Notes: generated by a model not told the origin, from the letters alone. Numbered from the stretch's first letter, positions 25,999 through 64,000 are shown. The stretch is DNA of 64,000 nucleotides from Psittacicella melopsittaci (GCF_003585925.1 NZ_NRJH01000013.1:1-64000), one strand, 5' to 3'. A program made the numbers and translations.

Positions 25999-26034
25999 AA
26001 AAAAAAGTCCTCTGGACTTATTAAGACAGAGGAC
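25999..26034 (-). terminator. terminator of the first EamA-type transporter
   Basis: An 8-bp stem (26007-26014 with 26027-26034) overlapping the end of the coding region, with seven U on the minus strand. Confidence 0.75.
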
Positions 26035-26944: not shown

Positions 26945-27055
26945 AAACGAATAAAAGTTAAATTATTTTGTCATTATAAAAAAAGGAAAGCCCTCAGTTA
27001 AACATAACAAAGGTGCTTCCCTATTATAAGAAAATTTTTGTTTTTTGCTTGATTT

Positions 27056-27997: not shown

Positions 27998-28320
27998 AAT
28001 ATTTTTTTCTGTTGTTTATAGTGTTGTTCAAAAAAATAATTAGCGTATTATAGCACGAGAAGCAAATAAATCTAGATAAGAGCCATTTGCATTTAGAAAT
28101 GACTTGATCTGTTTTTGGAGTTAAAAAATCACTTTTGCTTGGAGCTAAATTTAAGCTTCAACTTATTTCCAAGCTCGAGAGATTCGTTAACTTTTACCTG
28201 ATTTCACTATTACAAAATTTAGAGTAATCGACGTGCCTAAAAGTACATTTTTTGCAAAAATAACTCAAGCTAATAGGCATACAATTTGTGTAAGTTTTAG
28301 CTTTACTTTAACTCGATTAA

Positions 28321-28364
28321 GGTTGGTTAATTATTTTAATAAATCTTTGGTTGGTTAATTATTT
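28321..28364 (+). repeat. two copies of a 16-bp repeat also found near polA
   Basis: GGTTGGTTAATTATTT occurs at 28321-28336 and 28349-28364. A third exact copy is at 50842-50857, also in a spacer on the same strand. Confidence 0.75.
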
Positions 28365-28393
28365 TTATTGTTAATATCTCTAGCCCAATAATA

Positions 28394-28426
28394 AAAAAAG
28401 GAAGCCATTTGAGCTTCCATTTTTTT
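28394..28426. terminator. terminator downstream of transporter copy 3
   Basis: GGAAGC / GCTTCC stem flanked by seven A on one side and seven T on the other, so it could work on both strands. It lies about 130 bp past the copy 3 stop. Confidence 0.7.
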
Positions 28427-28435
28427 ATTTTGTTT

Positions 28436-28545
28436 GCCTTGCTTTGGCATTACAATGACTTGTTTTAGTATTGTTTTGGCATTGCCTTGTCTAGCAATAC
28501 TTTTACATTACCTTGCTTAGCATTATTTTTGCATCTGCTTGCTTT
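28436..28545. repeat. imperfect tandem repeat of about 26 bp, four units
   Basis: On the minus strand the units share an ATGCnAAA-AT-TGCTA-CAAGG outline with many substitutions. It is not coding in any frame I tried. It directly follows the stop codon of transporter copy 3. Confidence 0.5.
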
Positions 28546-28554
28546 AATTGATCT

Positions 28555-31594: not shown

Positions 31595-34500
31595 TTATTT
31601 CCAAATGATTTTACGATTCGTAAAGCAGTAAATAGCTCCCATTTTTTGGTAACCATGGAATAGAGAATCCATAGTATTCACACTATTATTATTGTGAGCT
31701 AAGGTTGGAATTGCTAGACGAATACGATCTGGCCAAATATTTAAGAAGTTAGCAAGGTCACTTGCTTGTGCCCCTACTTGATCTAATACTCCTTGTTGTA
31801 CCGCACGGCAAATAGCACTTTTACGCACTAGGTAACATGCTGAAGAAATCGGACGGTATAACGGGAACTCTACCAGTTGTGGTAAATCTGGAGTTGAGAT
31901 ATAACGCCATGAAGATAAGTTAATTACTTTGGCATTATGTAACTCGATTGGATATACCATATCTGAGTAGATTTTTGGATGTAAAAGAGTAATAGCATCT
32001 ATAGGTTCATTAGTTGCTTGCTGTAAAATCCGCGTTAAGCGTACTTGCCAATCTGGACTAAAGACTATGTCATCTTCACAAATAAGAACAAAGTCGTTTT
32101 GGTCGATTGACTCATCATAAAGAGCACTTAGTAACGCTTTACGGTGAGCTAGAGCAGCCCCTATTTCCCTTGGCGTTGCTGGACGGCGGTTAAATAAGAT
32201 GAACTTGTCTTGAGCAAAGTTATCATCAATAACCTTTTCACTTAATTCATCGCCACGTACCCCTTCAATACGCTGTACCGAAGCTACAATTGAGGTTTTT
32301 AGTTGACTAAACATACCTTCCCAACGGTAAAATTGCGTATCTAAGTTAAGTACTTTAACTTTAAGCTGTTGTAAAGTTTGCGGAGTATTACGGTTATTGG
32401 TAATTATCCCTACATCAGCAGCTTGTTGTTCGAGGCGTGGGTAAGCCGCAAACACCGAAGATTTAACCAGATTATCTAACTCTCTTAACTCTTGGAGTTC
32501 GATTTCTTTAATCGACATTCCACGTAAACGAGCATTATCTCGATCTAAGCGTTTTAAGTAATTTTCATAGTCGCTCGAAGGACTAATTTTAACGCCAAGA
32601 TCAAAGTTAACCGTAAGTTTATTTGCTCCTTTACCGCGTTTGCCAGAAATAAAGGCTTCGTTATTGGCTAGTTTACGTTCAACGTAGCGTTGAGCACGAC
32701 GAATTAACGAACGTCCACCAAAGGCAGCTTTTACTCCACTAATGATTTCTTCTTTCGAAGCACTAACTAGAGCTACCCCCAGATTACCTGTACCTGTAAA
32801 ACCAAAGGCTTGAGCAATAGTTGCTTTACCACTCGCTTTGCCTGCACCAAAGTCATCTTGTCCTCCTACTGGATCAAAGCTTTTAACTTTAGCTTTAGCT
32901 GGAGATCCTGAAGCAAAGTCACCTTCAAAGCCAGCTTTACTTGGATTAGCATCAAAGCTTAAAGTTTTAACGGCAACAGCTTTAAACTCCACCGCTTTAA
33001 CTTCTTTTGCTTCTTTAACCTGAGCAACTTCTTTGCCTTTACCTTTAGTTTCTTTGCTTGGGAGTTTTTCCTGTTCGTCGTCATCATCGGAGAATAAACC
33101 AAATTTCCACCAAGCTCCTTTAGATTTACGTGGTTGTTGTGCTACCACCTCTTCTAAAAGTTTTTGGCTAGCTTGATGATCTTCGCCTTCTTGGTCATCA
33201 CGATAGTAAGAAGTAGTTTCTACTTGACGATAACTAGTATGCTCCTCATCTCTCCCAAAGTCAGTATCTAAGAAACCAGTGGTTGTAGTTAAACCCTTTC
33301 TTTCCTCATCACTGTCTTCGAAAAAGCTTGGCAGCATGCTCACACCTGTCTCTGGAGTATTAGCCACTTCGTTAACATTTAAATGATAAGCTTCAGCTTG
33401 TAATACTTTTGCAGGAGTATAACTCGATTTTTTGTGATAAGTAAGAGCAATTTTTGCAACATAATCATCTTGAGTAATTGGTAATTGCGAAATACTTTGC
33501 ATACCAAAATTATGCTCATGTGCCCAAGAAAGTAAGTCAGATACGCTTGGAGTTTGGTATTGTTGGTTAAATACTTGTACTTGTTCCACTACCTGTTCGA
33601 GCGGAAGTTGGCGTACTGGACTTTGAGCTAAGAAAGCTATGCGTTGGTTAGCAGCTACAAGTTGGAGAATTTTACCGATATGCCAATCTGGCTCTTGCCA
33701 AATAGCCGCACTTTGACGGATAAGTCCTTTACTGATTACCCAAGTTTGCGGAATATTGTTAAAGGCAAGACTCTCGTTCCCCATTTGTAAATCTAGAGTA
33801 CGTTGTTGTGGAATAGCTGCCACTGAGTCAAGAATAACTATATCCTCACGAATCTCTTGATGAGCTTGATAGTAAACTAATACTCGCATTAAGAGATCTT
33901 GGTTTACCTTATCTAGTTGCGGACGCACGCGATTGAGGTACTCTTGGTGCAGAGCTAAATTAACTTCAGGATAACGATAACCTGTAGCTAAGAAGTTATA
34001 ACGCGTACTCCAAGGTTCAATAGCTTGTTGTAAAGCCAATAAGTATTGGAACTCTTGGTTAGCTCTATCTAACTCACCTTCAATTAGGTTTTGTAAGGCA
34101 GTTACTTTACTTACAAACGCAGGTACTGGGTCTGTTTGTACCGGAACCAGAATTTGAGCATGGTAAGGACGGGTTAAACCTGCTAAAGGACTAAAGGTGT
34201 TATAGCCCATGAAGTTTAACTCATTACCAGTTAAGCCCGACTCTGTTAAGAACTGGAGTAAGCGATTAGAATCACGAGGCGTAGTGTCATAGTGATACTC
34301 TTGCGCTAAAAGGTTACGGTTAAGGAGTTTAACTCTTTCGCTAATTGGCGTAGTATAAAGTTTAGCGTAATCTAACCAAATACTTAAAGAATCATATTGA
34401 ATATCTTCTTCAATAATTGCCCCGTCCACTTTTTGGTGTTCGATAGCATGATAAGGCGCCACATGATAGTATTTAGCAAAGAGGTAAAGTAAACGTATAC

Positions 34501-37405
34501 CTGGTAGTACTTCAGGAGCAGCATAGTATAAACGTTGTCCTACAGTTACCACACGATAGCCCAGTTCGAGAGCTTTTTGGCGTTCTTCTTTAATGCGTTC
34601 GAGTTCTGCCTGATCAATTTTTGGAGCTTTAATCAGTTGATATGGAAACGGACCATATTTGCGATTGGTAGTTTCAAAAACATGGGAAAGATAACTTTCT
34701 ACTTTAGCCGAAGCTGGAGTAATAAAGTGTTTCATCCCCAGTTCTTGAGCCATTTCCACATATCTTTCCATTGGCATACTAGCAAAATCAGCTTCGCTAT
34801 AAACCTTGTCTTTTTCGAGTTCGCCAGTTAACACTTGCATATTTTGTTTGGCTTGATATGCCGTGCGAATTACCTCATGTTGCGAAGCTTTTAACTCTTC
34901 CCAGAGGTCGGCTGGAACAAAGGCAAATTTTTCGAACTGAATGCTAGGAGACTGATTATTTTCTTTTTGCACTCGTAAAAAGTGCTGTAATTGCTCACGT
35001 TCAAGTAAAGTTAACTGGTTCGTTTGGTTCAGTAACTTAATTAAAGTTGCTTGCGGTTTACCACTCGCTTGTCCAGGAATTACAACCTTAGTACTTGGAT
35101 ATAAGCCAGTCAGAGCATAAGGTTTAGTTACAAAACTCGGCAGGGAGAAAAAGCTTGCCGTTGCTACTTGAGGATAGCTTACTCTATTTCTATCCCAAGC
35201 AGGAATACGAGATTTATTAACTAATTTAAATAAGAAGTTATTAGTATAACCGTCAGCCAGAATTAATGGCACATTAGATTCAATTCCCGTAATGTGCTGT
35301 TTAATTGACTCAGGTTTTACGTGTTGCTCGAGAACCTGTCCTAAGTAGGCGGTTTCAGCCATACTATTATCAACCGTTGCCGCTAAACGTTTTTTATCAC
35401 GTGCTTTTTCTTTGGCATCTTGTTGTTTAATCAGGTCAAGAAGCGATAATTCTTCATTATGCTCGTAGTCTTTTACACTAATTTCTTCTCTTTGGCTTTC
35501 CACATGCGCATGAACTTTATCAGCTTCACGGTCTTTTTGATGAAGCTGTTCAATAGCCTTTTCAATTTTGGCATTTAAATCTTGCCCATGTTGCATGCGG
35601 TCTAATTGACGACGGTTTTTTCGACTGAGACGATTAGTATGCTCGCCTGTTGCCGTTACTGCCGTATTAGCAAACGAAGAAACCTTAGTAATTTGTTCTT
35701 CACTTAAAACTTCATAATCTAACGGCGTACGGAAAGCACGTTCTGCTTGCCCACGCGTTAAGAAGTTATTAATGGTATTAAAGGCTTCGGCTGGTAAATG
35801 TTGGTGCGTATTGGTAATAAAGATGTAATCATCTTCTTTTAAAACATTATTTGCCAGCACTCGCTTGAAAAGCTCTTTAACACTAAAAGTTAACTCTAGT
35901 ACCTCAGGTCCTAAACGACGATATGAGTCCTCAAAGTTATCATCACGGTACTCTAAGTTAAAGTCACGTAAGGTAGTAAGAGGACGTAATACCCAGTTAA
36001 TGTTTTGTGGGGTATTAACTAAAAAGCGTTTGAGTGAGTTATTTTGTTTAACTTCGTAAAAACTTACATAAAAAGCTGGACGCTTATTGTAAATAAAGAT
36101 CTGTTGGGAGTAATTTAAAATTGGTCGGTTAAAACCAATAATGTTTGGATTAACTTTAGCAATTAACGGGAACGAAGCCGACATTGCTTGGAGCATATCC
36201 CAGCTTAATAGAGTTTTTAATTTTGCCCATGCTCTATTAAAACTGTCATTTTCTGAGAAAATCTCTCCCTTAGTTTTAGAATTTTGTTGACTAAACTGAA
36301 TTGCTTTTTGCACATTAAGTGCCTGTGCCTCTGCTTGTTCAGCAAAGTCACTGTCATTGAATTTTCTTGGGGTGTACTCTGGATCTAAAGCATGCAGAGA
36401 ACGTAAATTAAGAATATAGCCAGTTGCTCCTCGTCCTTTCGGGTTAGTCTCACCCAGACGACCGTGCATAAACATAAAGTTTAAGCCAAAGTTTTGTGGA
36501 TCTTTTTGGCTTTGTTCGTTCCACGCCTCAAAAGTTTTTTGCTCAAATGGGGTTACTTTTTCCAGACGACGCCCATTGAAGTGGAACATAAGTTGCTCTT
36601 CAACATTAAGACCTAGACTATTTTTAATATAATCTAGCTCCATAAAGCTACGACTATCACGTTGGAAATAACCCATGTTAATTAAGCCGTAGTTAAAACC
36701 TTTACTACGAGCATAGGTTATAGCCGCATCAACTTTGATTTTCCAATCGGTAGCTAAACTTACAGTTGGCTCGACAATGGTCGCATGCTCATAGATCTCA
36801 GCTTGACCATAAGCTAAGAGCTGTAAGTTAAGTTGGGTTAAACGATAGAGACCATCAAGGGCACTAATAGTTTTAGCGCGTTCATTTGGTACTTGTTTAC
36901 TTAAATAGTCTTCAAGTTCTTGGCGTACACTTGAAGAAAGTAAGTTTAAAACTGCAGGGTGAACGGTCGCATTACGGTCAAATTTATCAAACCCTAAAAT
37001 TTTGTTGAGCAGGTTTAACCCCATTTTTGGGGTAGTTAAAATAAGTTGGAACATCGGAAGTTTTCGTAAATCAACAACTTGAATACGATATAAATCCGGA
37101 TTAGTTAAGACAGGAATAGGGGTTGAAGCGTCTGCTAAGTATTGTGCAAAGTTTTTGCGCAGAGCATCAACATTTATTATTTCCGCAGGATCTTTACCTA
37201 GTAAAGAATCAAACTCTTTTGAAGTTGAACGCGCTTCTGCATCAGGTGGTGCATAAGCCAACTCACTCAAGTCTTGGTGCGGATTAAGACGCGTATAACG
37301 CTCCTTAGTATCGAGAAGCTTTTGGGCATTAATTAAGTAGGAAATTATTTGCGAAAAGCCCACGAAACTAAGCTGGAGACTTTGATTTAAGTATGGATAT
37401 TCCAT
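31595..37405 (-). CDS. 1936-residue multi-module protein with a C-terminal GT25 glycosyltransferase domain
   Basis: The last 270 residues are a complete family-25 glycosyltransferase domain, the type that adds sugars to lipooligosaccharide in Haemophilus and Pasteurella. It has VKVLNLDTQFYRWEGM, then RPATPREIGAALAHRKAL, then the metal-binding block DFVLICEDDIVFSPDW (Glu-Asp-Asp near residue 1776), and an ISSACYLVRKSA segment. Before it comes a Lys/Gly/Ala-rich linker (about 1390-1560). The first 1350 residues contain weaker echoes of the same block: ATIVEPTVSLATDW (about 205), DDYIFITNTHQHLP (about 525), GAIIEEDIQYDSLSIW (about 995) and DIVILDSVAAIP (about 1190), mostly without EDD. So this looks like a chain of decayed modules ending in one live enzyme. 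No signal peptide or membrane helix is seen. It is a single transcription unit. Confidence 0.85.
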   Translation of the reverse strand: MEYPYLNQSLQLSFVGFSQIISYLINAQKLLDTKERYTRLNPHQDLSELAYAPPDAEARSTSKEFDSLLGKDPAEIINVDALRKNFAQYLADASTPIPVLTNPDLYRIQVVDLRKLPMFQLILTTPKMGLNLLNKILGFDKFDRNATVHPAVLNLLSSSVRQELEDYLSKQVPNERAKTISALDGLYRLTQLNLQLLAYGQAEIYEHATIVEPTVSLATDWKIKVDAAITYARSKGFNYGLINMGYFQRDSRSFMELDYIKNSLGLNVEEQLMFHFNGRRLEKVTPFEQKTFEAWNEQSQKDPQNFGLNFMFMHGRLGETNPKGRGATGYILNLRSLHALDPEYTPRKFNDSDFAEQAEAQALNVQKAIQFSQQNSKTKGEIFSENDSFNRAWAKLKTLLSWDMLQAMSASFPLIAKVNPNIIGFNRPILNYSQQIFIYNKRPAFYVSFYEVKQNNSLKRFLVNTPQNINWVLRPLTTLRDFNLEYRDDNFEDSYRRLGPEVLELTFSVKELFKRVLANNVLKEDDYIFITNTHQHLPAEAFNTINNFLTRGQAERAFRTPLDYEVLSEEQITKVSSFANTAVTATGEHTNRLSRKNRRQLDRMQHGQDLNAKIEKAIEQLHQKDREADKVHAHVESQREEISVKDYEHNEELSLLDLIKQQDAKEKARDKKRLAATVDNSMAETAYLGQVLEQHVKPESIKQHITGIESNVPLILADGYTNNFLFKLVNKSRIPAWDRNRVSYPQVATASFFSLPSFVTKPYALTGLYPSTKVVIPGQASGKPQATLIKLLNQTNQLTLLEREQLQHFLRVQKENNQSPSIQFEKFAFVPADLWEELKASQHEVIRTAYQAKQNMQVLTGELEKDKVYSEADFASMPMERYVEMAQELGMKHFITPASAKVESYLSHVFETTNRKYGPFPYQLIKAPKIDQAELERIKEERQKALELGYRVVTVGQRLYYAAPEVLPGIRLLYLFAKYYHVAPYHAIEHQKVDGAIIEEDIQYDSLSIWLDYAKLYTTPISERVKLLNRNLLAQEYHYDTTPRDSNRLLQFLTESGLTGNELNFMGYNTFSPLAGLTRPYHAQILVPVQTDPVPAFVSKVTALQNLIEGELDRANQEFQYLLALQQAIEPWSTRYNFLATGYRYPEVNLALHQEYLNRVRPQLDKVNQDLLMRVLVYYQAHQEIREDIVILDSVAAIPQQRTLDLQMGNESLAFNNIPQTWVISKGLIRQSAAIWQEPDWHIGKILQLVAANQRIAFLAQSPVRQLPLEQVVEQVQVFNQQYQTPSVSDLLSWAHEHNFGMQSISQLPITQDDYVAKIALTYHKKSSYTPAKVLQAEAYHLNVNEVANTPETGVSMLPSFFEDSDEERKGLTTTTGFLDTDFGRDEEHTSYRQVETTSYYRDDQEGEDHQASQKLLEEVVAQQPRKSKGAWWKFGLFSDDDDEQEKLPSKETKGKGKEVAQVKEAKEVKAVEFKAVAVKTLSFDANPSKAGFEGDFASGSPAKAKVKSFDPVGGQDDFGAGKASGKATIAQAFGFTGTGNLGVALVSASKEEIISGVKAAFGGRSLIRRAQRYVERKLANNEAFISGKRGKGANKLTVNFDLGVKISPSSDYENYLKRLDRDNARLRGMSIKEIELQELRELDNLVKSSVFAAYPRLEQQAADVGIITNNRNTPQTLQQLKVKVLNLDTQFYRWEGMFSQLKTSIVASVQRIEGVRGDELSEKVIDDNFAQDKFILFNRRPATPREIGAALAHRKALLSALYDESIDQNDFVLICEDDIVFSPDWQVRLTRILQQATNEPIDAITLLHPKIYSDMVYPIELHNAKVINLSSWRYISTPDLPQLVEFPLYRPISSACYLVRKSAICRAVQQGVLDQVGAQASDLANFLNIWPDRIRLAIPTLAHNNNSVNTMDSLFHGYQKMGAIYCFTNRKIIWK

Positions 37406-40671: not shown

Positions 40672-41672
40672 TGAATAGAAAACCTCTTGAAGGCTTAGTA
40701 TGTCCGATTACTAAACAACCTTTATACCGTTTAGATGAACATCATGTAGCCACAGCTGATCAAAGTCATGTGTATCTTGTGGAAAATGGTATTTTTCGTT
40801 TAAAATCTAGTCAACATCACTATCGCATAGTTATTCCATCTCGTTTAGCTTCAACGCGTTTACCAAATAAACCTCTAGCTAAAATTGATGAGTGGAATCT
40901 AATCAATACCGTAGTTTACTCGGCATTACAAACTGGCTTAGATGTAATAGTTGCTACTGACTCAGATTTAATTGAGCAGGCAGTAAATGAGTTTACGGCA
41001 CAACATCAATTAGGCGATCGTGTCCAAGTAGTTTTAACCGATTCGAGCTTAGAAAATGGTACCGAGCGTATTGCTCAGGCTATAGATAAACTTGAGCTTA
41101 GCGATGATGAAATTATTGTTAATGTGCAAGGGGATGAACCATTTTTCAATCCAGAGATTTTAAATGATTTAGTGGCTCACTTTGTTGAAGCTGAAACAAA
41201 AAATCCGAGCATTAAAATGGCAACTATTGGGCAATTAGCTCATCCTGAAGATGTAACTTCCCCTAACGCCGTTAAAGTAGTTACGGATAAATATGGTTTA
41301 GCTCTCTACTTCTCGCGTAACCCAATTCCTTATCCACGTTCGGTAGCCCAAGAACAAATTAAATATATTAAACACGCTGGGGTATATGTTTACCGTGCTA
41401 AATTTGTACGTGAGTATAAAGCTTTAGCTATGACACCATTAGCAACTGCTGAATCCCTTGAACAATTAAAAGTTTTAGAGCATGGCTATAAAATTGCTTT
41501 AATGATGATTCAAGGACGTGGTTTTGTGGGTGTAGATACAGCTCAAGACCTCGAGCAAGCGCAAAAGATTAAAGCTCAATACTGGCAAACAGCTCCAGGT
41601 TCGCCTCAAGCTCCAGATCAAGAATCTTACCGTAAATTCTTAGCTAGCTTTGGCAGTAAATACTTAGATTAA
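40671..41672 (+). CDS. kdsB: YcaR-KdsB fusion: CMP-Kdo synthetase with an N-terminal Trm112-like segment
   Basis: From about residue 50 this is KdsB, which activates Kdo to CMP-Kdo for addition to lipid A. It has RIVIPSRLASTRLPNKPL, DVIVATDSD, NGTERIAQAI, IIVNVQGDEPFF (metal and nucleotide site) and the C-terminal GVDTAQDLEQA. The first 50 residues (LEGLVCPITKQPLYRLDEH ... VENGIFRL) resemble YcaR, the small Trm112-like protein encoded between lpxK and kdsB in E. coli. Here the ycaR stop is gone and the two are one protein. Only one cysteine of the usual CPxC remains, so zinc binding is unlikely. It overlaps lpxK by one base and ends at a strong terminator. Confidence 0.92.
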   Translation: MNRKPLEGLVCPITKQPLYRLDEHHVATADQSHVYLVENGIFRLKSSQHHYRIVIPSRLASTRLPNKPLAKIDEWNLINTVVYSALQTGLDVIVATDSDLIEQAVNEFTAQHQLGDRVQVVLTDSSLENGTERIAQAIDKLELSDDEIIVNVQGDEPFFNPEILNDLVAHFVEAETKNPSIKMATIGQLAHPEDVTSPNAVKVVTDKYGLALYFSRNPIPYPRSVAQEQIKYIKHAGVYVYRAKFVREYKALAMTPLATAESLEQLKVLEHGYKIALMMIQGRGFVGVDTAQDLEQAQKIKAQYWQTAPGSPQAPDQESYRKFLASFGSKYLD

Positions 41673-47123: not shown

Positions 47124-48395
47124 ATGACAAAGTATAAACAACAAGTTCTTTTAACTACCGATGCTGGTTTTATTCAGCGTTTACCTAATTTTATAAAAAA
47201 TCTAATTGCGTTTAATCGTGACCTTTTAGATATCTATATTATTACTTCTTTTGATTTTGCTAATTCTGAGTATAAATCATTATTTACCGAGTTCGATAAT
47301 TACCCGAACTGCAAGTTACATTTTCATTATGTAACTCCAGAACAACGCTTTAAATATGAACAAGTAGACTATGCTAATAAAGACCGTGCTAATGCTATGA
47401 GTCTACGTTTATATGCTACCGAACTAAAACTAACAGGACGTCTGCTCTACCTAGATGCAGATATTCTTTGTACAGCTCCTTTTGCTGAGCTCTTTGATGA
47501 CGAGAAAGTAGATCTACAAGGTAAAACTCTAGGTGTAGTTACTGACTACTACCTTATGGCAAAAAGTCTACTAACCAATGGTAAAGCTTTTAAAACAAAA
47601 CTTTCAGGACGAGCAAGAGTAACCCCTTTTGATAGTGAAAATCCTTACTTTAACTCAGGATTTTTACTCATTGATATGGACAAACTCAATGCCTCAAACC
47701 TGTGGCTAAACCATATTGCCGAGTTAAAAGACTATGATGCCTTCCCTGATCAGGATTTACTTAATGTTCTTCACTTTAATGACAAGGTAGAGTTAAGCTC
47801 AAAATACAATTATTTAGCTTATCACTTAATTCTTTGTCGTTACTTCTTTATGCGCGATCGTTGGCATCAAGTAACCCAAGTTAATCGTAAAAAAGTACGT
47901 CATCAAGCCGAGCAAGAAAATCAATTTCCTGCCGACTATCCTTTTGCGCAAGTGGATGTATTTAAGAAAGTAACTCCAACTTTTTTACATTTTGCCGGAT
48001 CACGTAAACAATGGAATAGCCATGCCCAAGAATTTGTTGATGCCTATAATCTGTTTACACAAAACCTCGAACAAATTCTGGCTCAACCTGTAAGCTATTA
48101 TGAGCATTATTTTGCGACTCTATTTAAAGTTTACGACTACTTACCTGTGTTAAATGACTATCAAGATAGCAATACTTTTGCTGATTTTTCTTTAGAAAAA
48201 TATAGTTTTTACTTTAACTCTTGTAAGCCTTGGACATTTAATCCGATTCTATTAAATACGCGTATGTATCCTTTAAAATCGCTTAAAGTCTTACTACGTA
48301 ATGCTATGGCAACAAAAGGACGAGATAAACTTAATGCTCAAGAATATAGCACTAAACATCCGCTTTTTGTTAAAGCTCTAGCAGAGAAAAACTAA
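47124..48395 (+). CDS. family-8 glycosyltransferase
   Basis: The 423-residue protein belongs to glycosyltransferase family 8, which includes LgtC and the LPS glucosyl- and galactosyltransferases RfaI/RfaJ. It starts with LLTTDAGFIQRLPNFIKNLIAFN, has the metal-binding DxD in LLYLDADILC (about 110), YFNSGFLLIDMDKL, FPDQDLLNVLHF and HFAGSRKQW with a conserved His. Beyond the catalytic domain (about 1-300) there is a C-terminal extension of about 120 residues typical for membrane-associated members. It probably adds a hexose to lipooligosaccharide on the cytoplasmic face. It is transcribed alone, and a row of small hairpin repeats separates it from the terminator. Confidence 0.9.
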   Translation: MTKYKQQVLLTTDAGFIQRLPNFIKNLIAFNRDLLDIYIITSFDFANSEYKSLFTEFDNYPNCKLHFHYVTPEQRFKYEQVDYANKDRANAMSLRLYATELKLTGRLLYLDADILCTAPFAELFDDEKVDLQGKTLGVVTDYYLMAKSLLTNGKAFKTKLSGRARVTPFDSENPYFNSGFLLIDMDKLNASNLWLNHIAELKDYDAFPDQDLLNVLHFNDKVELSSKYNYLAYHLILCRYFFMRDRWHQVTQVNRKKVRHQAEQENQFPADYPFAQVDVFKKVTPTFLHFAGSRKQWNSHAQEFVDAYNLFTQNLEQILAQPVSYYEHYFATLFKVYDYLPVLNDYQDSNTFADFSLEKYSFYFNSCKPWTFNPILLNTRMYPLKSLKVLLRNAMATKGRDKLNAQEYSTKHPLFVKALAEKN

Positions 48396-54198: not shown

Positions 54199-56352
54199 AT
54201 GCATAAATTTTTGCAAACTCCGCTTACCCAAAAGCTCCCTAAATTTGTTTTAGGTGATGCTCCTTTATTTAATTTTCAACCATATAATGAAGCCTTTACC
54301 ACTTTTGCTCGGGTTGATTTAGAGCTCCTCGAACAAGACTGGTACTTTTTCAATCTTCTTGCCCAACTTGGTTATTTAGCTCCAGCTGAGCAACTTGCCC
54401 CTGGAACTAAATTAAACGCCGAGCAAGAACTTTGTCTTCAATATTGGCAACAAATGGCACAGCACTTACAAGAGCAAGTGCAAGCTGACTATAAAGTAGC
54501 ACAAGTGCCGAACCTACTTAATCTTTTAACCCCAGCAACTTATGTTGAGCAAGCAACTCTTACCCCTGCTTTACTGCCTGAAAAAATTAGCCCTCGTGCT
54601 TACCTTTTTCTTGCTCTGAGTCTACCTTATCTAGGAGAAAAACTCAGCCCAAGTCAAGTAGAGCAGGCACTAAGTATGCGTTGTCTTTTTAATCATCTTC
54701 TTTGCCAGGTATATCAAGGCAGCCAAGATAGCGACGTCTTACTAAATGAGTATCAAGATACTAATCAATGGGTGCTCGTAGTTAGTGATCAAGCTAAATT
54801 AACGCCAGATTGGCAAGCACGCCTCGAAGGCATTTTAACTGCCTTACAAGGTCGTAGCCAAGTTCTGGCTAACCCGCAATTGCTCGAAGCTGCTAAAGCT
54901 CTAGAAAAGCAAGATAGAAGCGATCTAGCTAACTTTTGGCGAGCACAAAACTACTACCGCCAGCAGTACTTGATTGCCGTAGAAGACTATGCGCAAAGTC
55001 TCGAGCAAAACTATGCTACTGCCGACCGCCTCATGCGTACTGCGGTAATTGCTTTAGATAACCAGTTTGAGTTAGAGGCAGAATTTGAGGCTTCTACAGG
55101 TCTTGGCTTTATTGCCAGCCAAAGTTGGAGTCAAAATCTCCCTAACTTTAATAAACCGCAAGCGCAAAGTCTGCACTTTTTACATAGTCTTAATGGAGCA
55201 AGCCAAGGGGCTTACTTACTTAACCTTGCAGCTCTGGCTAACTTAAAAGTGCAAGCTTTAGCTCCAGCTGAGCAAGCTTTTGGTATCTATGCGCAAATTG
55301 AGCAACAAGAGCTAGGTAAACTCAAAAGCAAATTAAAAAACTACCGCATTACTTATCCGCAGGCAAGTGTTAGTCTCGATCCATTTGGGGCTTGGTTTGT
55401 GGCTCAAGAACAAAGAGCGGTATTAGCTCAAGCCCAACCTAGTTTAGCTCAAGTACCAAGCACGGCTGAGCAAAAACTGGCAGTAGCCCAATACCAACGT
55501 ACGCTCCCAGGTTATAACTACTCAGGGAACTACCTCGGACAAGGTTATGATTATCTTGCTACTTGCAAACATCTAGTTCTCAGCTATATGCCAGCGAGCC
55601 AAAGTCAATTTGATCTGTTCAACCAACTTGGAAGAGCAGATCTACAAGGCTTTATCTCAACTAGCCCAGAACTAGCTTTAGGTAATTTTTATAAACAACC
55701 TCATACTTTAAATTTTGTTCCTGTACCTCTGCAAGCAAAATTTAGTCAAGACGAGCAGGTTTTAGCAGGTAACTTTTTTACCCCGCAAACTTTAATTGCT
55801 CTTTTTGCTCAGTTAAGCAAGCAAAATGATATTCTTGCCCACGACTATATTCTAGTTTGCCAAACTACAAGTCGCTTTGCTACTAACTGGTATGGGCAAC
55901 TGAACCAACAGCTAGCACTAATTTTTGCTCAAGAGCTTCCTCCAGTAATAGCTCTAGGCGGTCAAGATCTGGGGCAAACAGTAAAACCAGAACAACTCTC
56001 TGCCTTTTTAGTGCAAAAGCAAGCTCTTGCTAGCTTAATTGAACGTTTAGAGGCAAGTCAGGATCTCGAAGTTTATTGTCTTGAGCAAGAACTAGTAACG
56101 CGAGCATCGGGACAAAGCTCAAGCTCTACTCAGGCTAAAGTAGTTAATCTCGGACAAGATGCACAACTGGCAACGCGACCTATAACCCTTAATGCAAAAC
56201 AGTTTAAACTCTTGGCGCAGAGTTTAGATCTAACTCCAAAAGAGTTACGCAAATACATTCTCAGCGAAAGCAAGAAAGGTGCAAAAACAACTTATACTTT
56301 TGCTTTCACGCAACTTATAGAACAACATTATGGCAAATCTTCCTCTGTTTGA
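54199..56352 (+). CDS. 717-residue GT25-like protein with two decayed modules
   Basis: This first gene of a three-gene array has no intact catalytic motif. Two segments align by eye with the GT25 active-site block of its neighbours: QWVLVVSDQAKLTPDWQARL (about 188-207) and YILVCQTTSRFATNWYGQL (about 550-568). In both, the Glu-Asp-Asp that binds metal and sugar nucleotide is replaced (SDQ at 196, QTT at 555). The rest is Gln/Leu/Ala-rich with patches such as YNYSGNYLGQGYDYL that recur in the third gene (VSLGYDYVGQMPKFV). No signal peptide or membrane helix. The stop overlaps the next start by 23 bp, so the two are translationally coupled. It may be a scaffold or a dead paralogue; function is unproven. 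Confidence 0.85.
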   Translation: MHKFLQTPLTQKLPKFVLGDAPLFNFQPYNEAFTTFARVDLELLEQDWYFFNLLAQLGYLAPAEQLAPGTKLNAEQELCLQYWQQMAQHLQEQVQADYKVAQVPNLLNLLTPATYVEQATLTPALLPEKISPRAYLFLALSLPYLGEKLSPSQVEQALSMRCLFNHLLCQVYQGSQDSDVLLNEYQDTNQWVLVVSDQAKLTPDWQARLEGILTALQGRSQVLANPQLLEAAKALEKQDRSDLANFWRAQNYYRQQYLIAVEDYAQSLEQNYATADRLMRTAVIALDNQFELEAEFEASTGLGFIASQSWSQNLPNFNKPQAQSLHFLHSLNGASQGAYLLNLAALANLKVQALAPAEQAFGIYAQIEQQELGKLKSKLKNYRITYPQASVSLDPFGAWFVAQEQRAVLAQAQPSLAQVPSTAEQKLAVAQYQRTLPGYNYSGNYLGQGYDYLATCKHLVLSYMPASQSQFDLFNQLGRADLQGFISTSPELALGNFYKQPHTLNFVPVPLQAKFSQDEQVLAGNFFTPQTLIALFAQLSKQNDILAHDYILVCQTTSRFATNWYGQLNQQLALIFAQELPPVIALGGQDLGQTVKPEQLSAFLVQKQALASLIERLEASQDLEVYCLEQELVTRASGQSSSSTQAKVVNLGQDAQLATRPITLNAKQFKLLAQSLDLTPKELRKYILSESKKGAKTTYTFAFTQLIEQHYGKSSSV

Positions 56353-59300
56353 TTCTCTTCCAAAGTTTGTTCTGGTAAAACCAACTGGAACTAAAACTCG
56401 AGAGTCATTTTTCCGTCAACCTTTTGCAAACCTCTTTACGCCAGTTCCTGCTTGGGATATGACTCAATATCTCGAGGAGCTTGGGCTAATTACGCCTGAA
56501 ATGGCAAAAGAATATGGGCATGAGGTAAAATTCGATCTCACCGATAGCTTTTTATACAATCCTGCTTGTATGCATGTGCCTTTTATGGAGGCCTTAAAAC
56601 CATATTTTGATATCCGTGACTTACCTAATACTTACGACCGTAATGTTCCGCGTCGCTTTTTAAGCATGGATGATGTTAACGAAAGCGTAAGTCTGGTTAA
56701 CCTCCTGGCTCATATTAGTATGGATAAAAGCATCCCGGATGATCAGTGGATCCTAATTGCCGAAGATCAAGCTATTCTAAATCCAGAATGGCCACAAAGA
56801 ATTGAAGCAATTCTTCGTCAATTAGTTCCAGTTAATCGTAGCCTGCAAGCTATTGTGGGACAATCGCGAGAGTATTTGCCAGAAAGTGATGTTGGGCGAT
56901 TAAAAGCAATAATTCTTTCGGCTGAGGGAAATAAAACTTTTAAAACTCTGAGCAAAGAAGATAAAGATGCCTTACGCATTTACCCGCACCAAAACCTTAC
57001 TTGTGATTATGCTCAGTTTTGTCAGGGCGTAGCTTCGCCTCTAGGCGGACAAGAGCTCGAAATTTCTAATGTATTTAACTATCACCGTTCGAGCTTTTTC
57101 CTCATTAATAAACTGGCTCTAATTCCTAAACTCAAACGTTGGGTTAAGGAAAAGATTGAGCAGGTTAACTACGGGAAAATCCATAATATTGTCCAAGGCG
57201 AAAATGGTCTATTTACTTGCTACCAAAAAAATATTGCTGCTCCTGAAGTAATAGATCTTAAACTCAAAGACGAGTATAGCCAAAGAGAAAATTATCCTGA
57301 CTATATTCTTGCGGGCGTAGACGCAGCAGGAAAAGAGTATACTAAGTTAATTCCTTTAGCTCAACCAGTAGCCTTTTATAAAGATACTATTCAATGCTTA
57401 ATGCACTTTACGCCTAATTCGATTGCTTATGCTAATCCTCTGCTAGCTATTCATACTTTTGCCAATAACAACCACTTGCTCAAAGATCAAGACTATGTTG
57501 ATATTGCCAAAGAACAAAGTAAGGCTGTAGTTTTTAATGCTAGCTTAAATCGCTTTGCTCCTTATGGCTATGACTTTATTCAGCCTTTACGCAAATACGT
57601 TTTCCAGGGCAAGCATCACTTAAATCTATTTCCGAGCTTTTTTGCTCAGCGTAATACCCAAGACTTTACTCCAGTATTGGCACCAAACCTCGAACAATGG
57701 AGTCTGGAACAAGTAGATAAGGCATATTATTTCCCAACCAAATTTGCCCGTGGGACTAACCACATGCCGAATCTAAGCCAAGTAGAGCAAACTCTTTTAC
57801 AACGTCGCTTTTTCTTGGATCTGCTTGCTGATGATACTATTCCTGATGATCAATGGATAGTAGTAGCCAAAGACCAAACAGTATTTCGTCCAGATTGGTA
57901 TCCACGCTTAAACTTTTTCTTACGTTGGTCAACCATTCGTTATCCTGAAGCAAAAATTCTGGTAGCAGGCTATGAAAGCCCTGAGGCTGGCTTTAGCTTT
58001 ATGAGCGAGCAAGATCCAGAAAAACTGCGAGAAATCTTTGCTCAGGCAGGTATTTTTACGCCTGATCGTTCTTGGAGTTGTAAACTAACTCATGATTTTG
58101 AAGCCCTAGTAGCAAATTCATTCCGCTATATTACTTACTCGTTCATTTTATTCCGTAAAAGTATTATTAAGGAAAAATTTGCTCCAAGTATTTTCCAAGA
58201 GCCAAGCACTTATTACCAAGATCGCTTTGCCGATTTAATTCGCTTTAATGCCACTAATGTAATTTGCCTCAACCCAGGACTAGCAGTATATCGTCCTCTC
58301 GAGCAAATTCACCAGCAACCTAAGCTCAGCTCAGGGCAAGAGTTAGAAGCTCTAATTGATACGAGCGAAATGGAGCAAGATCCACAGGCTCAAGCCCAAG
58401 AGCTTTATCGTCAGGCTGTAACTGCCCCAGATGCTCAAGTTAACCCAGAAAACTATGATAATCTCGATGATCTGGTTAACCCAATTGAAAATATCAATAC
58501 CATTCAAGCTAAAGAACAACTTGATCTTAGCCCCTATGGTGCTGAGCAAAGAGCAAAAATTGCCCAAGAGCAACCGTTATTTTTTGGTAAGCAAAAACCA
58601 TTGAGTGAGTATTTTGCTCAACTTGAACCAGAACAGTTTGCTTATTGTTGCAAATCGAGCCCGAAACTCGATCCGCAATCTAGCTATCGCAAAGCAGGCT
58701 TTTTACCGGATTTAGTTGCCAAGGTAAAAAAATATGTGATTAACCTGCCAAGCTCGCATGACCGCTTACAAGCCTTTATGCGCCAAAATAATGTTGAAGA
58801 CTTTATTGTCCATGAAGCAGTTTGGGGTAAAGACTTAAGCGAGGCAGATAAAGCTCAACTGTTCGATCAAGAGAAGTACGACAAACGTTATAACCGTACT
58901 ATGCATGCGGGCGAATATGGTTGTTCGCTAAGTCATACGCAAATATTACGTCATGCTTTATATGATCCAGAATTGCAACTTGATGACTGGCTCTTAATTA
59001 TTGAAGATGATACGCGTCTTAATCCTGACTGGTACCAAATGCTCAATAAAGTACTCCACTTTGTTGAAAACAACCTCAGCGAGCGTGTAGAAATTATTAA
59101 TGGAGCACAAAACCAAATTCCAAACTTTGATTTTATTGCTCCAAAACGCTTTACTAAGTACCATAGTATTTATTCGCAAATTAATAACTATTATGAACTT
59201 GAGCCAGAGTTAGGTATTACTTTAATTAACCGTGATTTCCCTGCAGGGGCTGGTTTTTACCTCATACGTAAAAGCTTGTTAGTAAAAAATGCTCAACGCA

Positions 59301-60175
59301 TTTGTGGCAAAATTGATTGGGTTGCCGATGACCTTGCTCAAATGTATACTTTCCGTCCTGAAGTCTTTGCCTATGTTAATCCACAGTTAGGCTTTGATGA
59401 TCCGAATTTAGTGTCAATTCTCGACGGAGAAAGGGTAGCAAGTATTGCCGCTGAAAAAATGAAGCGCCGAGCAATACCTATTACTAAACCGCACCCTTAT
59501 GTAAATCAAGAGCGTTTATATGTTATTCAAAAATCACTGAGCCTGAGCCAAATTAATAAAAAATTCCCTGGCTTCCAGGTTATTAAGCAAGTTGATTACA
59601 GTAAAATGGCACGTGCCGAACAAGAAAAACTCTTTGACTTTGCTAAATTCAAAGAGCAATATGGTCGCGATATTACCCCAGAGGAGTTAAATCTCACTCT
59701 TGCCCATCAGCAAGCTTGGGAAAAAATTCGTGATCTAGAAGCTTCGGATTTTACTTTCCACTTTATTGTTGAAGATGATCAAACTCTAGCTCCTAACTTT
59801 TTACATCAAGTTAACTGCTTATGTGAATACCTAGATACGCGTTTAGATCTCGACACCCTACTCATTCAAACAAGCAATAGCCGTCAAGCCCAAGACTTTA
59901 ACAAGTTAGACTTTGCGGCTTATGAAGAGGCTCGCATCTTCACTGATGAGCAAAACCTCTTTGCCGTTAACCCTGAGCAAGATGTGTGTCGTGTCCATCG
60001 TAAAGTAGGCAATGGTTCAGGATCTTATATCATGCTAAAATTTGTTCCTTCGCATATGCATCTTTTCTTATCGCAAGGACGTCGTTTCTTCCTTGCCGAA
60101 GACTATGTTTTAGGCATGCATTTTAGTAAAAAATCTCTGGCTTTTGCTCAACCTCAAGTGTCTATTAAACCCTAA
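56330..60175 (+). CDS. 1281-residue multi-module GT25 glycosyltransferase
   Basis: Four GT25-like modules stand in a row. Module 1 has DDQWILIAEDQAILNPEW (EDQ at 145), module 2 DDQWIVVAKDQTVFRPDW (KDQ at 514), module 3 DDWLLIIEDDTRLNPDW (EDD at 892) and module 4 FHFIVEDDQTLAPNF (EDD at 1148). Module 3 is a full family-25 domain: YVINLPSSHDRLQAFM, HAGEYGCSLSHTQILRHAL, the EDD block and WVADDLAQMY. Module 4 begins LYVIQKSLSLSQINKKF. These enzymes transfer hexoses to lipooligosaccharide in Haemophilus, Neisseria and Pasteurella; single-domain members are about 250-300 residues. Two live and two decayed modules in one chain are unusual. No signal peptide is seen, so it should act in the cytoplasm. 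It starts inside the previous gene. Confidence 0.9.
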   Translation: MANLPLFDSLPKFVLVKPTGTKTRESFFRQPFANLFTPVPAWDMTQYLEELGLITPEMAKEYGHEVKFDLTDSFLYNPACMHVPFMEALKPYFDIRDLPNTYDRNVPRRFLSMDDVNESVSLVNLLAHISMDKSIPDDQWILIAEDQAILNPEWPQRIEAILRQLVPVNRSLQAIVGQSREYLPESDVGRLKAIILSAEGNKTFKTLSKEDKDALRIYPHQNLTCDYAQFCQGVASPLGGQELEISNVFNYHRSSFFLINKLALIPKLKRWVKEKIEQVNYGKIHNIVQGENGLFTCYQKNIAAPEVIDLKLKDEYSQRENYPDYILAGVDAAGKEYTKLIPLAQPVAFYKDTIQCLMHFTPNSIAYANPLLAIHTFANNNHLLKDQDYVDIAKEQSKAVVFNASLNRFAPYGYDFIQPLRKYVFQGKHHLNLFPSFFAQRNTQDFTPVLAPNLEQWSLEQVDKAYYFPTKFARGTNHMPNLSQVEQTLLQRRFFLDLLADDTIPDDQWIVVAKDQTVFRPDWYPRLNFFLRWSTIRYPEAKILVAGYESPEAGFSFMSEQDPEKLREIFAQAGIFTPDRSWSCKLTHDFEALVANSFRYITYSFILFRKSIIKEKFAPSIFQEPSTYYQDRFADLIRFNATNVICLNPGLAVYRPLEQIHQQPKLSSGQELEALIDTSEMEQDPQAQAQELYRQAVTAPDAQVNPENYDNLDDLVNPIENINTIQAKEQLDLSPYGAEQRAKIAQEQPLFFGKQKPLSEYFAQLEPEQFAYCCKSSPKLDPQSSYRKAGFLPDLVAKVKKYVINLPSSHDRLQAFMRQNNVEDFIVHEAVWGKDLSEADKAQLFDQEKYDKRYNRTMHAGEYGCSLSHTQILRHALYDPELQLDDWLLIIEDDTRLNPDWYQMLNKVLHFVENNLSERVEIINGAQNQIPNFDFIAPKRFTKYHSIYSQINNYYELEPELGITLINRDFPAGAGFYLIRKSLLVKNAQRICGKIDWVADDLAQMYTFRPEVFAYVNPQLGFDDPNLVSILDGERVASIAAEKMKRRAIPITKPHPYVNQERLYVIQKSLSLSQINKKFPGFQVIKQVDYSKMARAEQEKLFDFAKFKEQYGRDITPEELNLTLAHQQAWEKIRDLEASDFTFHFIVEDDQTLAPNFLHQVNCLCEYLDTRLDLDTLLIQTSNSRQAQDFNKLDFAAYEEARIFTDEQNLFAVNPEQDVCRVHRKVGNGSGSYIMLKFVPSHMHLFLSQGRRFFLAEDYVLGMHFSKKSLAFAQPQVSIKP

Positions 60176-60181
60176 AAATAT

Positions 60182-63100
60182 ATGTTTAAATTAGCTCGTA
60201 GTTATTTACTTACTAATATTCAAGGCCATCAAACTGCGCGCCGGATGAGTTTACGTCAACCTTATGCTCAGGAGTTAACTGAGCATAAGGCTACTACTTA
60301 TACGCGTGAGCAAATTGCTCAACGTTTTGATGTGCAAAGCTATGAAGCCGAATTTGGTAAGCAAAATACATCGGATCAAGCTTTAAATCTAATTCTTGCT
60401 CACCTTGATCTGCATGCTCTAATAGCGCAAGATAAAACTCTCGATGAACAAGATTTTGTGTTGGTTGTGCAAGAAGGATCGATTCTGGCAAGTAACTGGA
60501 AAGAGCAAGTGCAAGATATCTTGCAAGCTGCTCAAGATAATCCTGTTCTGAGCCAACGCCTCGAGGTAGTGAGCCTTGGTGATGAGCAAGAACCAACTTT
60601 TATTCCCCGCGATCACCAACAACTCGAAAGCAAACGTAAGTTCAAAGTAAGCGAAAATAATTATTTAAGTGTTCAAGCTTGTGATAATACGGTTAAGCGT
60701 TTACGCTTACTGCCAAGTCTTAACTCTTACTTAGAGCAAAGATCGCCTCTAAATCAAGCGCAAACTTATAAAACACGTGTCTTTAACTTTAACGGGCAAC
60801 CTCTTAAACAAAACTTTGCCCAGGATAGTTTTATTAGTCTGAACCAGCTCAATGCACCGCTTGAGTTAGCTTGTGTTTCGCGTTTACCTCTAGTGCAACC
60901 TTGTGCTTACTTAATTAAAGTAAAAACTCTCCGCACTTATATTGCTGGTCTGAAGAAAAAAGCAAGTAAAGACGGCGTATGGCACGAGCCTATTGCCTGG
61001 AATATGTCCATGTGGCATAAAATTTGTGACTATAGTGTAGGTTCGGTAGCTATTAGTAACCCTAGTTTGGCTGTAGCTAACTTTATTAATGGCAATCATG
61101 TGCTAGATAAAAGCTCACATACCATTATTACTTGGATGCAAACTCACCAAATCCAAGCTCAAACTGTTAGTCTAGGATATGACTATGTAGGGCAAATGCC
61201 AAAATTTGTCCTCTATAGTCAAAACCAAGCCTATAGCTTACAACAATTTTACGGCAATAGTGACTGTGAGAGTTTTACCCCTGTACCTTTAATTTCTCCA
61301 GCTGATCCGCGCGTGCAAAACCTAAGCATGGGCTGGTCACGAGTATTTGCCGAACTAGGTAAAACTTCACAAATTTATCGTGAGCAAAGCATGGGGCAAA
61401 CTTTTGCACTCTTTAGTATTTTCCAAGCTATGCTCAGCAATCCGCAATTAGGGGAAATGGATTACTTTATTCTTGCTAATAGTAATCTCAGCCTCGATAT
61501 TGACTGGAAAGCTCGCTTAAATCAAGTAATAGCTTCGGTAGCTAACTATTTACCGAACAATTTACTGATTTTAGGGGACACCGTAGGTGCAAAAAACTTA
61601 AACTATCAACCAGCTTCGCTGTATGAACAAAGTGGACAGCTTTTTGATAAAGGGTTTAAGTTTATTGTGCAACCTGACCTCGAGCAACTTTGGGATCAAA
61701 ATGAGTTCTTTAGCTCGAGCATGCAAACTATTCGTCAGTTTACTAATAGTAATTTTTCGTTCTTGATTTTTAATAAACAGGCTATTCGCACTTACATTAA
61801 TCGCTTACGCCAAGAACTGCAAGAGCTCAGCATGGATAAAATTCTTGCTTCTTGGGAAAAAGTTGCTAACCAAATTCAACTGGGGCTTAATGTTGAAGTA
61901 AGTGAACTTAGTAAAGCGAGCTTAGAGCAAGAACGCGATGATCCGAATTCACACTACTTATTTGTCGGTGAAAACCTAAAAATCAAAGACAAAGAGCTTG
62001 AAAAACAAAACCAAAACTTCTATGCTCAAGAGCAACAACGCAAAATTATTGCTCAAATAACAGCAACTAGTGCTCAGCCTGAGCAAGATAGTTTATGGCT
62101 CGAGAGCCTTTTCAAAGCCTATAATCATGCCCGCTTATTTAATAACAAAGAGCAGTTTAGGGCTTTAATTGAGCTTGATAACCTCAGCGATTGGCAAATT
62201 CTCACTTTAGCAGCTCCTTTATTTGAGGCAAACTATACGCGTTTAACGCAGTATCTGGACTTTTATTCTCATGCAATGTTGCAAGTTAACCCGCCTCTAG
62301 GTTTTACTTCTAACCTCGAGTCAGTAGCGCAAATTGCCAATGAAGAACAATTTGGCTTAGGCGATTTCCAAGTGCTCCGCACTAATCGTCAACAACAAAG
62401 ACAGCAGGCTTTTGTCAATAATAATCCGCAAGTAACGCCAGATTACTTAAGTAAAGTACGTAAGTTTGTTATTAGCTTACCGCAATCTAAAGATCGTCTT
62501 GAAGCCTTTATGGCACAAGAAAACTGTGCTGATTTTGAGTTATTCCCTGCCGTTTATGGGAAAGAACTGAGCGATGAGCAAGTATACGCTCGCTTTGATA
62601 CGCAAATGTTCTACCATGCCTATGATCGAGCTATGACTCCAGGAGAAATAGGCTGTACTCTTTCGCATTGGGAAATTTACCAAAAAGTACTACAAGATCC
62701 AAGCATTGCTGATGACGACTGGGTGTTAGTTTGTGAAGATGATTCTAAGTTTAATCCTAACTGGTATCAACGTTTAAATAGCATTCTGCATTACCTTGCT
62801 ACCCATCCTGAGCGAGCAACTACTTTTGTTCAATGTAATAACAATGCCTTATTACAGGATCGCCCTTTAAGCTTAGAAGAGCTTCTAGAAGTAACCTACT
62901 TTAACCTTGAAGCTAAAAACCATGTGGTTCTGAGTAAACAACAAAATCTCTTTTTCCCACATGCAGTAGTTTCTTATGGTTCATCTAACTACCTCTTTAA
63001 AAAGTCTTTACTTAAAACGCAACTATTTCAGAGTTTAACGCGTCCTTATTGGGTTGCCGATGACTTCCCACGCTTTTTTGAGTTTGTTCCAGATAGCTAT

Positions 63101-64000
63101 GCCTATGCTTCGCCTATGCTCAGCTACCAAAACGTCGAAGAGTTTACTTCGGTAATTGAAGATGAACGTGAACTGGCAATCAAAAATAAACGTCAACGTT
63201 TAATGAGTGTGCCAATTTACGAACCTTTAAACTTCTTAGCTCGCAAAGTTATTGTCATTCAACGCACCCTAAGCGAAGAACAAATTCGGGAAAAATTTGG
63301 TGCCGAACTACGCCATATAGTCCGCAATGCCGAGTTTGAGGCTCTAGATAACAAGCAACTGGAAAAACGCTACGACCTCAATACCTTTAAACAAACCTAT
63401 GGGCGTTTACCAACGCGCGAGGAAATGATTCGAGCAATTTGTCACCAAGAAGCTTATCGCTTTATTGACAATGTTGTAGGGGAAGTACATAACTATTATC
63501 TAGTTGTCGAAGATGATGTTACCTTTGCTAATGAGCACTGGGAAATGCTCACCAATCTAGTTACACACTATATAGCGACGCGCCTCGATACGCGTACTGA
63601 GTTAATTGAGTTAAGTAATAGTTACTGGAATAAAGCTCTTGAGCAAGTAAATCAGGATCCACACCAACTCCAAGGACACAAGGAAGTAGGGGACTTACCT
63701 GAAGTAGGTCAAACTCTGCTTGAAGCAAAAAATAGCTATGGTTATGGCTTCCCAGAGTATGCTCTTAGCCATGATCACTTTAAAGACTATTATGTCCTCG
63801 GAAGCAAAGAGCAAAATTATGCGGTAAACCCTTTCTTAGATATCCAAATTACGAGCAACCATGCTCGCACTGGAGCTAAGGCTTACTTAATTTTCTCTTA
63901 CCCAATTAAAACCCAAACTGTGGCATACAAGCCAATTAGCTGGTTACATGATGATTTTCCACGCATTCTCTTCTACCATAACCTAGCTTTAGCTTATGCA
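60182..64000 (+). CDS. multi-module GT25 glycosyltransferase (partial, C-terminus outside window)
   Basis: The frame opens at ATG 60182, 6 bp after the previous stop, and is still open at the window end with 1273 codons. It is a paralogue of the preceding gene. Modules 1 and 2 are decayed (FVLVVQEGSILASNW, QEG at 97; YFILANSNLSLDIDW, NSN at 433). Module 3 is complete: KFVISLPQSKDRLEAFM, TPGEIGCTLSHWEIYQ, DDWVLVCEDDSKFNPNW (EDD at 852) and PYWVADDFPR. Module 4 starts VIVIQRTLSEEQIREKF and has YYLVVEDDVTFANEHW (EDD at 1110) and WLHDDFPRI. The order decayed-decayed-live-live is the same as next door. The role is presumably lipooligosaccharide glycosylation. Its product ends beyond the window. 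Confidence 0.9.
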   Translation, partial: MFKLARSYLLTNIQGHQTARRMSLRQPYAQELTEHKATTYTREQIAQRFDVQSYEAEFGKQNTSDQALNLILAHLDLHALIAQDKTLDEQDFVLVVQEGSILASNWKEQVQDILQAAQDNPVLSQRLEVVSLGDEQEPTFIPRDHQQLESKRKFKVSENNYLSVQACDNTVKRLRLLPSLNSYLEQRSPLNQAQTYKTRVFNFNGQPLKQNFAQDSFISLNQLNAPLELACVSRLPLVQPCAYLIKVKTLRTYIAGLKKKASKDGVWHEPIAWNMSMWHKICDYSVGSVAISNPSLAVANFINGNHVLDKSSHTIITWMQTHQIQAQTVSLGYDYVGQMPKFVLYSQNQAYSLQQFYGNSDCESFTPVPLISPADPRVQNLSMGWSRVFAELGKTSQIYREQSMGQTFALFSIFQAMLSNPQLGEMDYFILANSNLSLDIDWKARLNQVIASVANYLPNNLLILGDTVGAKNLNYQPASLYEQSGQLFDKGFKFIVQPDLEQLWDQNEFFSSSMQTIRQFTNSNFSFLIFNKQAIRTYINRLRQELQELSMDKILASWEKVANQIQLGLNVEVSELSKASLEQERDDPNSHYLFVGENLKIKDKELEKQNQNFYAQEQQRKIIAQITATSAQPEQDSLWLESLFKAYNHARLFNNKEQFRALIELDNLSDWQILTLAAPLFEANYTRLTQYLDFYSHAMLQVNPPLGFTSNLESVAQIANEEQFGLGDFQVLRTNRQQQRQQAFVNNNPQVTPDYLSKVRKFVISLPQSKDRLEAFMAQENCADFELFPAVYGKELSDEQVYARFDTQMFYHAYDRAMTPGEIGCTLSHWEIYQKVLQDPSIADDDWVLVCEDDSKFNPNWYQRLNSILHYLATHPERATTFVQCNNNALLQDRPLSLEELLEVTYFNLEAKNHVVLSKQQNLFFPHAVVSYGSSNYLFKKSLLKTQLFQSLTRPYWVADDFPRFFEFVPDSYAYASPMLSYQNVEEFTSVIEDERELAIKNKRQRLMSVPIYEPLNFLARKVIVIQRTLSEEQIREKFGAELRHIVRNAEFEALDNKQLEKRYDLNTFKQTYGRLPTREEMIRAICHQEAYRFIDNVVGEVHNYYLVVEDDVTFANEHWEMLTNLVTHYIATRLDTRTELIELSNSYWNKALEQVNQDPHQLQGHKEVGDLPEVGQTLLEAKNSYGYGFPEYALSHDHFKDYYVLGSKEQNYAVNPFLDIQITSNHARTGAKAYLIFSYPIKTQTVAYKPISWLHDDFPRILFYHNLALAYA

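Follow-up and report, generated by a model that had tools for sequence, protein, structure and literature searches.

Psittacicella are bird-associated bacteria. One of their loci encodes very long proteins in which GT25 glycosyltransferase modules stand in series, some with and some without the EDD active-site block, and this raises the question of what such proteins do and why the modules without EDD are kept. The stretch analyzed here (the window, 64,000 nt, C5:1-64000) comes from a Psittacicella genome of 2.29 Mb, and the genus is placed in the Psittacicellaceae, Pasteurellales (NCBI taxonomy). Among the relatives searched, no genus of the Psittacicellaceae other than Psittacicella was found. 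Comparisons within the genus draw on four genomes, namely that of the window and three more (G001, G002 and G003); relatives that carry the array are Psittacicella gerlachiana and P. hinzii.

A four-gene array of GT25-derived proteins

An earlier note on the window had described three adjacent genes with ten GT25-type blocks, and both the three ORFs (A, B and C, Table 1) and all ten blocks are present. Gene A holds decayed blocks only (SDQ and QTT), and B (EDQ, KDQ, EDD, EDD) and C (QEG, NSN, EDD, EDD) share the same order, two modules without EDD followed by two with it. The array itself is larger than was noted, as a fourth gene, D, lies outside the window, giving 14 modules across four genes, and a further family member, E, is dispersed and has one C-terminal GT25 module with EDD as well as two or more decayed modules that can still be recognized. 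Below, modules are numbered by their position in the four-module protein, and equivalent positions are called columns 1 to 4.

Table 1. Genes and modules of the GT25 family. Positions are those of the window unless a contig is named; slashes separate the blocks found in four species at the place of EDD.
Feature	Position	Strand	Size or residues	Description
Gene A	54199..56352	+	717 aa	Two modules, A1 and A2, both without EDD
Module A1	54199..55398	+	residues ~1-400	SDQ/SSN/SDQ/NEE
Module A2	55501..56118	+	residues ~435-640	QTT/QSS/QVG/PRT
Gene B	56330..60175	+	1281 aa	Four modules
Module B1	56330..57514	+		Without EDD (EDQ/NNE/QDH/EDQ); second Asp kept
Module B2	57542..58369	+		Without EDD (KDQ/KDQ/KDA/KDR); second Asp kept
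Module B3	58697..59479	+		PF01755; DR, GEYGC-LSH, EDD and WVADD conserved in four species
Module B4	59492..60172	+		PF01755; EDD and second Asp kept in four species, Arg and GC motifs absent
Gene C	60182..64000 (window edge; ends C5:64021)	+	1279 aa once contig extended	Four modules
Module C1	60182..61141	+		Without EDD (QEG/QEG/EEG/ENG)
Module C2	61154..61981	+		Without EDD (NSN/NSF/NSN/NAD)
Module C3	62429..63211	+		All GT25 motifs checked conserved in four species
Module C4	63224..64000	+		EDN in the fourth species and EDD in the others; WLHDD; no GC motif
Gene D	C5:64031-68044 (outside window)		1337 aa	Fourth array gene
Gene E	31595..37405	-	1936 aa	Dispersed fifth family member, in 4/4 genomes
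E, C-terminal GT25 module	31598..32398	-		PF01755, 33.7 bits; EDD in four species
E, decayed module, column 2	35735..35938	-	residues ~490-557	hhalign probability 94, E 7e-8
E, decayed module, columns 1/2, weak	36374..36832	-	residues ~192-344	hhalign probability 58-67, E 5e-5 to 1e-4

All four genomes have orthologous ORFs with unbroken frames, which rules out that the long ORFs reflect frame errors or are in truth separate short genes. Genes A and B overlap by 23 nt, and gaps of only 6 nt (B-C) and 9 nt (C-D) separate the others, which suggests that A to D belong to one operon. Promoter matches around the array did not rise above the shuffle background, and a hairpin with a T run that directly follows D (L007:14132-14162) can be taken only as a hint of a terminator. 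Beyond D, on the opposite strand, lies cyaA, which by eye we take to be the adenylate cyclase gene. Comparison across related genomes finds the array conserved throughout, with the order polA-A-B-C-D-cyaA kept in four of four, the contig of G003 ending before cyaA. In G003 there is also a second array locus (L047:11489-15024) with two more family members, X and a four-module gene that is apparently split, with module 1 in Y, modules 2-4 in Z and about 48 nt between the two.

Homology and fold of the modules

Ordinary family models miss over half of the GT25 domains in the array. PF01755 finds two stretches each in B, C and D, one in E and none in A; B3, B4, C3, D3 and the C-terminal module of E score above the gathering score, D4 falls below the cut-off, and C3 is the best match of the whole genome (75.4 bits). 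The modules of columns 1 and 2 are not reached by this model alone. Gene A had no match above cut-off in either Pfam or NCBIfam, and the NCBIfam search of the five proteins gave no match. Weak Pfam matches of gene A to PUB_1, ADSL_C and Cas9_a lie below cut-off and were disregarded.

A profile built from free-standing GT25s recovers modules 3 (E about 1e-12 to 1e-18), modules 4 (1e-3 to 1e-8) and D1 (1e-7), and leaves B1, B2, A1, C1, C2 and D2 at or near chance, so that profiles had to be compared ortholog to ortholog. Segment profiles made from the four orthologs were aligned pairwise with hhalign, with polA segments as controls. Scores between the segments range from about 47 to 356, and no polA control exceeds 22. 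Representative E-values are 2e-52 for B3-C3, 2e-28 for C4-D4, 2e-23 for C1-D1, 2e-19 for B2-D2 and 1e-17 for B1-D3, and the modules of gene A match those of B in the same positions (A1-B1, 1.4e-12; A2-B2, 2e-10). The C-terminal module of E groups with module 3 (E 5e-31), and a long part of the same protein, residues ~700-1670 (about 970 residues, conserved in four genomes), had no match to known families or modules.

Predicted structures were compared with Foldseek and VIA-align. The gene A model was built from an alignment of module-1/2 sequences only (mean pLDDT 60.5, cores 70-91), and the gene B model covers residues 395-1281 (mean pLDDT 60.2); with means near 60, the arrangement of the domains cannot be read from either. 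Human COLGALT1 is the best structural match for both. For A, the Foldseek E is 1.4e-4 and the VIA Z is 12.5 over residues 8-637, with an rmsd of 15 that comes from superposing the two domains as a single unit; the A model also matches a bacterial GT25 beta-1,4-galactosyltransferase (Z 11.1, rmsd 3.6). Taken singly, A1 resembles vaccinia H3, a GT-A-fold protein (Z 10.4, rmsd 4.0, 185 aligned), A2 resembles the GT25 protein R655 of Mimivirus (Z 11.8, rmsd 3.1, 146 aligned), and B3 resembles the C-terminal domain of COLGALT1 (Z 19.5, rmsd 3.1, 207 aligned). A GT-A fold is thus found by likeness to solved GT25 structures for B3 and A2, and to a GT-A-fold protein for A1. The predicted folds of the N-terminal segments in gene A are thus not unrelated to GT-A, while the B2 part of the B model is of low confidence and does not decide this for B. 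Profile comparison, the module tree described below and the AlphaFold/VIA-align comparisons agree that the blocks, including those missed by Pfam, are homologous GT-A/GT25 modules, and the mutual profile matches above controls, together with the tree, bear out the description of these proteins as serial and GT25-derived.

Active-site motifs and the number of catalytic sites

The earlier note had called the C-termini live and the N-termini decayed. The second half of this statement holds in every copy, as the metal motif is gone from modules 1 and 2; none of the column-1/2 modules has EDD, including X1 and Y1 (QDD), X2 and Z2. The second Asp is kept in B1 and B2 and lost in the other modules of these columns. 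The first half is borne out, as far as motifs go, for module 3 of B and C, where all motifs checked are present (EDD together with D/E-R, GE-GC-LSH and WVADD). In module 4 the second Asp is kept (mostly as WLxDD), and activity is uncertain because the N-terminal Arg and the GExGC motif are lost. Across species, B3, C3, B4 and E have an intact EDD in four of four; C4 has EDN in one species, D3 has QTP in one, and D4 has EDN in two and lacks the block in one. In G003, gene D (L046:527-4141) has lost module 4, and the EDD of its module 3 has become QTP, leaving no module with an intact EDD, so that enzymatic function can be dispensed with in at least one array member. EDD is itself no proof of activity, since human CEECAM1 keeps it and is nevertheless inactive (PMC3244457).

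One tentative possibility is that both C-terminal modules, 3 and 4, transfer sugar, each with its own specificity, and so add two successive sugars to a chain held by modules 1 and 2, comparable to the tandem GT-A domains that act on one glycan in K4CP, LARGE1 and CHSY-CHPF, which belong to other GT families and have two domains. In column 4, EDD and the second Asp persist in all four species for B and in most of them for C and D, and B3-B4 gives weak whole-length structural matches to CHSY3-CHPF and LARGE1. These matches, however, have an rmsd near 20, so that the two GT-A domains are alike and their arrangement is not, and both the missing Arg and GC motifs of column 4 and the EDN of D4 in two species speak against this possibility. 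We prefer to place catalysis in module 3, which is the probable catalytic site from its motifs; module 4 may be a second, specialized site, and gene A, having two inactive modules only, is probably a non-catalytic partner.

Proposed function and acceptor

Our preferred reading, to which we give a probability of roughly 0.6, is that these proteins form a genus-specific four-module GT25 family in which modules 1 and 2 would be inactive support and module 3 the catalytic unit for extending a surface glycan. The comparisons show architecture, homology, motif states, constraint and synteny; that the proteins are active, which donor and acceptor they use and what the inactive modules do is inferred. 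Modules 1 and 2 would be pseudo-glycosyltransferases that kept the GT-A fold and lost the metal/UDP-sugar motif, most likely serving as a scaffold or acceptor-binding platform, and the structural job that the earlier note had suggested, such as acceptor binding, would fit this. The job of the proteins would probably be the extension, in the cytoplasm, of a cell-surface glycan, most likely lipooligosaccharide (LOS), which is the likely acceptor because of established bacterial GT25 biology. A PF01755 search of the genome found no GT25 outside this gene family, and the genome has a GT9 gene (heptosyltransferase family) as well as lpxK and kdsB, which fit a LOS-making cell. The neighbors polA and cyaA are housekeeping genes and give no pointer to LOS.

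An acceptor of another kind, a protein modified by adhesin-like O-glycosylation much as COLGALT1 acts on collagen, is unlikely. The nearest solved structures are indeed COLGALT1 and Mimivirus R655, but structural likeness tracks the family and not the acceptor, and the bacterial GT25s studied so far work in LPS/LOS (Lex2B and LpsB in PMC3244457). A more elaborate form of the preferred reading is conceivable, though we would not lean on it: two ancestral pseudo-GT25 domains would hold the acceptor for two active C-terminal domains, and the paralogues, with A as a non-catalytic member, would form a Psittacicella-specific multi-protein complex for building glycans.

Origin and constraint of the modules

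In a maximum-likelihood tree of 74 modules, grouping is by column. All 18 first modules (support 88/85) and all 18 second modules (84/69) fall together with moderate support. All 13 fourth modules likewise form one group (100/99), and another unites all third modules and E (98/76). Within each column the grouping is by gene and then by species, and free-standing GT25s adjoin column 3. Grouping by position points to a four-module ancestor and to whole-gene duplication before the species split; most likely the four-module gene predates the A-D split, and the A-D split predates the species. The four-module form would have arisen through internal duplication of a GT25 domain, followed by whole-gene duplication, and gene A would later have lost modules 3 and 4. 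The motif loss in modules 1 and 2 is common to all paralogues and thus probably older than the gene duplications.

Between the genome of the window and P. gerlachiana, modules 1 and 2 have 47-57% amino acid identity, compared with 57-82% for module 3, and their second codon positions are 68-79% identical versus 39-49% for the third. Judged by these identities, the inactive modules are under amino acid constraint, weaker than that on module 3. Fold kept, metal motif lost and purifying selection are the marks of a pseudo-glycosyltransferase, and all three are found here, with loss of catalysis predicted. The weaker conservation, the decay of D in G003 and the splitting of the second-locus gene into Y and Z are what might be expected if the inactive modules were functionless relics in slow decay. 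We regard this as quite improbable, given that 36 column-1/2 modules persist in open frames in four genomes, that codon-position identities indicate constraint, and that the modules were retained even though their motif loss probably predates the gene duplications. The suggestion of the earlier note that the modules are a reservoir for recombination, which could serve antigenic variation, is hardly credible: tandem paralogues of surface-glycan enzymes are, as is generally known, sometimes variable, but the clustering by column, then gene, then species leaves no trace of conversion between modules or of concerted evolution in the 74-module tree, the near-identical tracts and mosaic phylogeny of gene-conversion cassettes are not seen, and direct DNA repeats shared between modules are short (at most 58 nt).

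Distribution and related systems

We searched PF01755 against overlapping samples of 59 relative, 274 class and 398 phylum genomes, several hundred proteobacterial genomes in all, and found no ORF with two matches outside Psittacicella. Most matches in these genomes are ORFs of 230-360 aa, and relatives in IMG/VR have one GT25 match per ORF. Single-match ORFs of 650-1050 aa were seen in both the sampled genomes and IMG/VR, and as PF01755 is blind to decayed modules, these could hide some. Among the bacteria sampled here, the four-module layout thus appears specific to the genus Psittacicella. A phage or plasmid origin was considered and rejected: for B3-B4 the phage collection gave nothing, and the single plasmid match was to a GT25 from Parabacteroides (34.7%). 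In the literature searched we found neither this array nor any tandem four-module GT25 protein described, and none of the Psittacicella papers returned was about these genes by title or abstract.

Several known systems share parts of the layout. Bacterial single-domain GT25s (PF01755; Lex2B, LpsB, LgtB; PDB 8xgx/8xkd) share motifs and fold with module 3, but measure about 230-360 aa, with a single GT25 match in nearly all of the genomes sampled, in contrast to four modules per chain, two of them inactive, in Psittacicella. Human COLGALT1/GLT25D1 (PDB 9evj, 9u7h, 8zgc) has two GT-A domains per chain, the C-terminal one GT25, compared with four in the array proteins; its N-terminal DXD is essential (PMC3244457), whereas EDD is lost in Psittacicella modules 1 and 2. 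Human LH3/PLOD3 sets a precedent for keeping a GT domain that is inactive, as its GT-fold accessory domain has lost catalysis and stands beside an active GT domain (PMC6082870); there, however, the order is active then inactive, a lysyl hydroxylase domain is added, and there is no GT25 tandem. Mimivirus R655 (PDB 9crz), from a virus of a eukaryote, has a single GT25 domain, which Foldseek aligns to B3 at 20% identity. The array is an example from bacteria in which pseudo-glycosyltransferase domains, ancestral and fixed, are joined in cis to probably active ones, in at least five paralogues per genome, and it makes the role of inactive GT domains (scaffold, acceptor binding, allostery) testable through module deletion.

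Other genes in the window

Additional features were seen elsewhere in the window. A GT8 family gene lies at 47124-48395 (+), and the genome has seven GT8 matches and zero free-standing GT25. An ORF of 978 aa at 1935-4871 (-) had no Pfam match at E 0.001. LpxK (38464-40671, +) has 735 aa, about twice the 328 positions of its Pfam model; it contains a long insert, acidic and of low complexity, and the Pfam match falls into two stretches. The adjoining KdsB-type cytidylyltransferase (40671-41672, +) matches PF02348 from residue 53 and has about 50 extra N-terminal residues, Trm112-type by eye. At 26021-29502 (-), three adjoining paralogous membrane proteins of 307-315 aa are DMT/EamA-like by eye.
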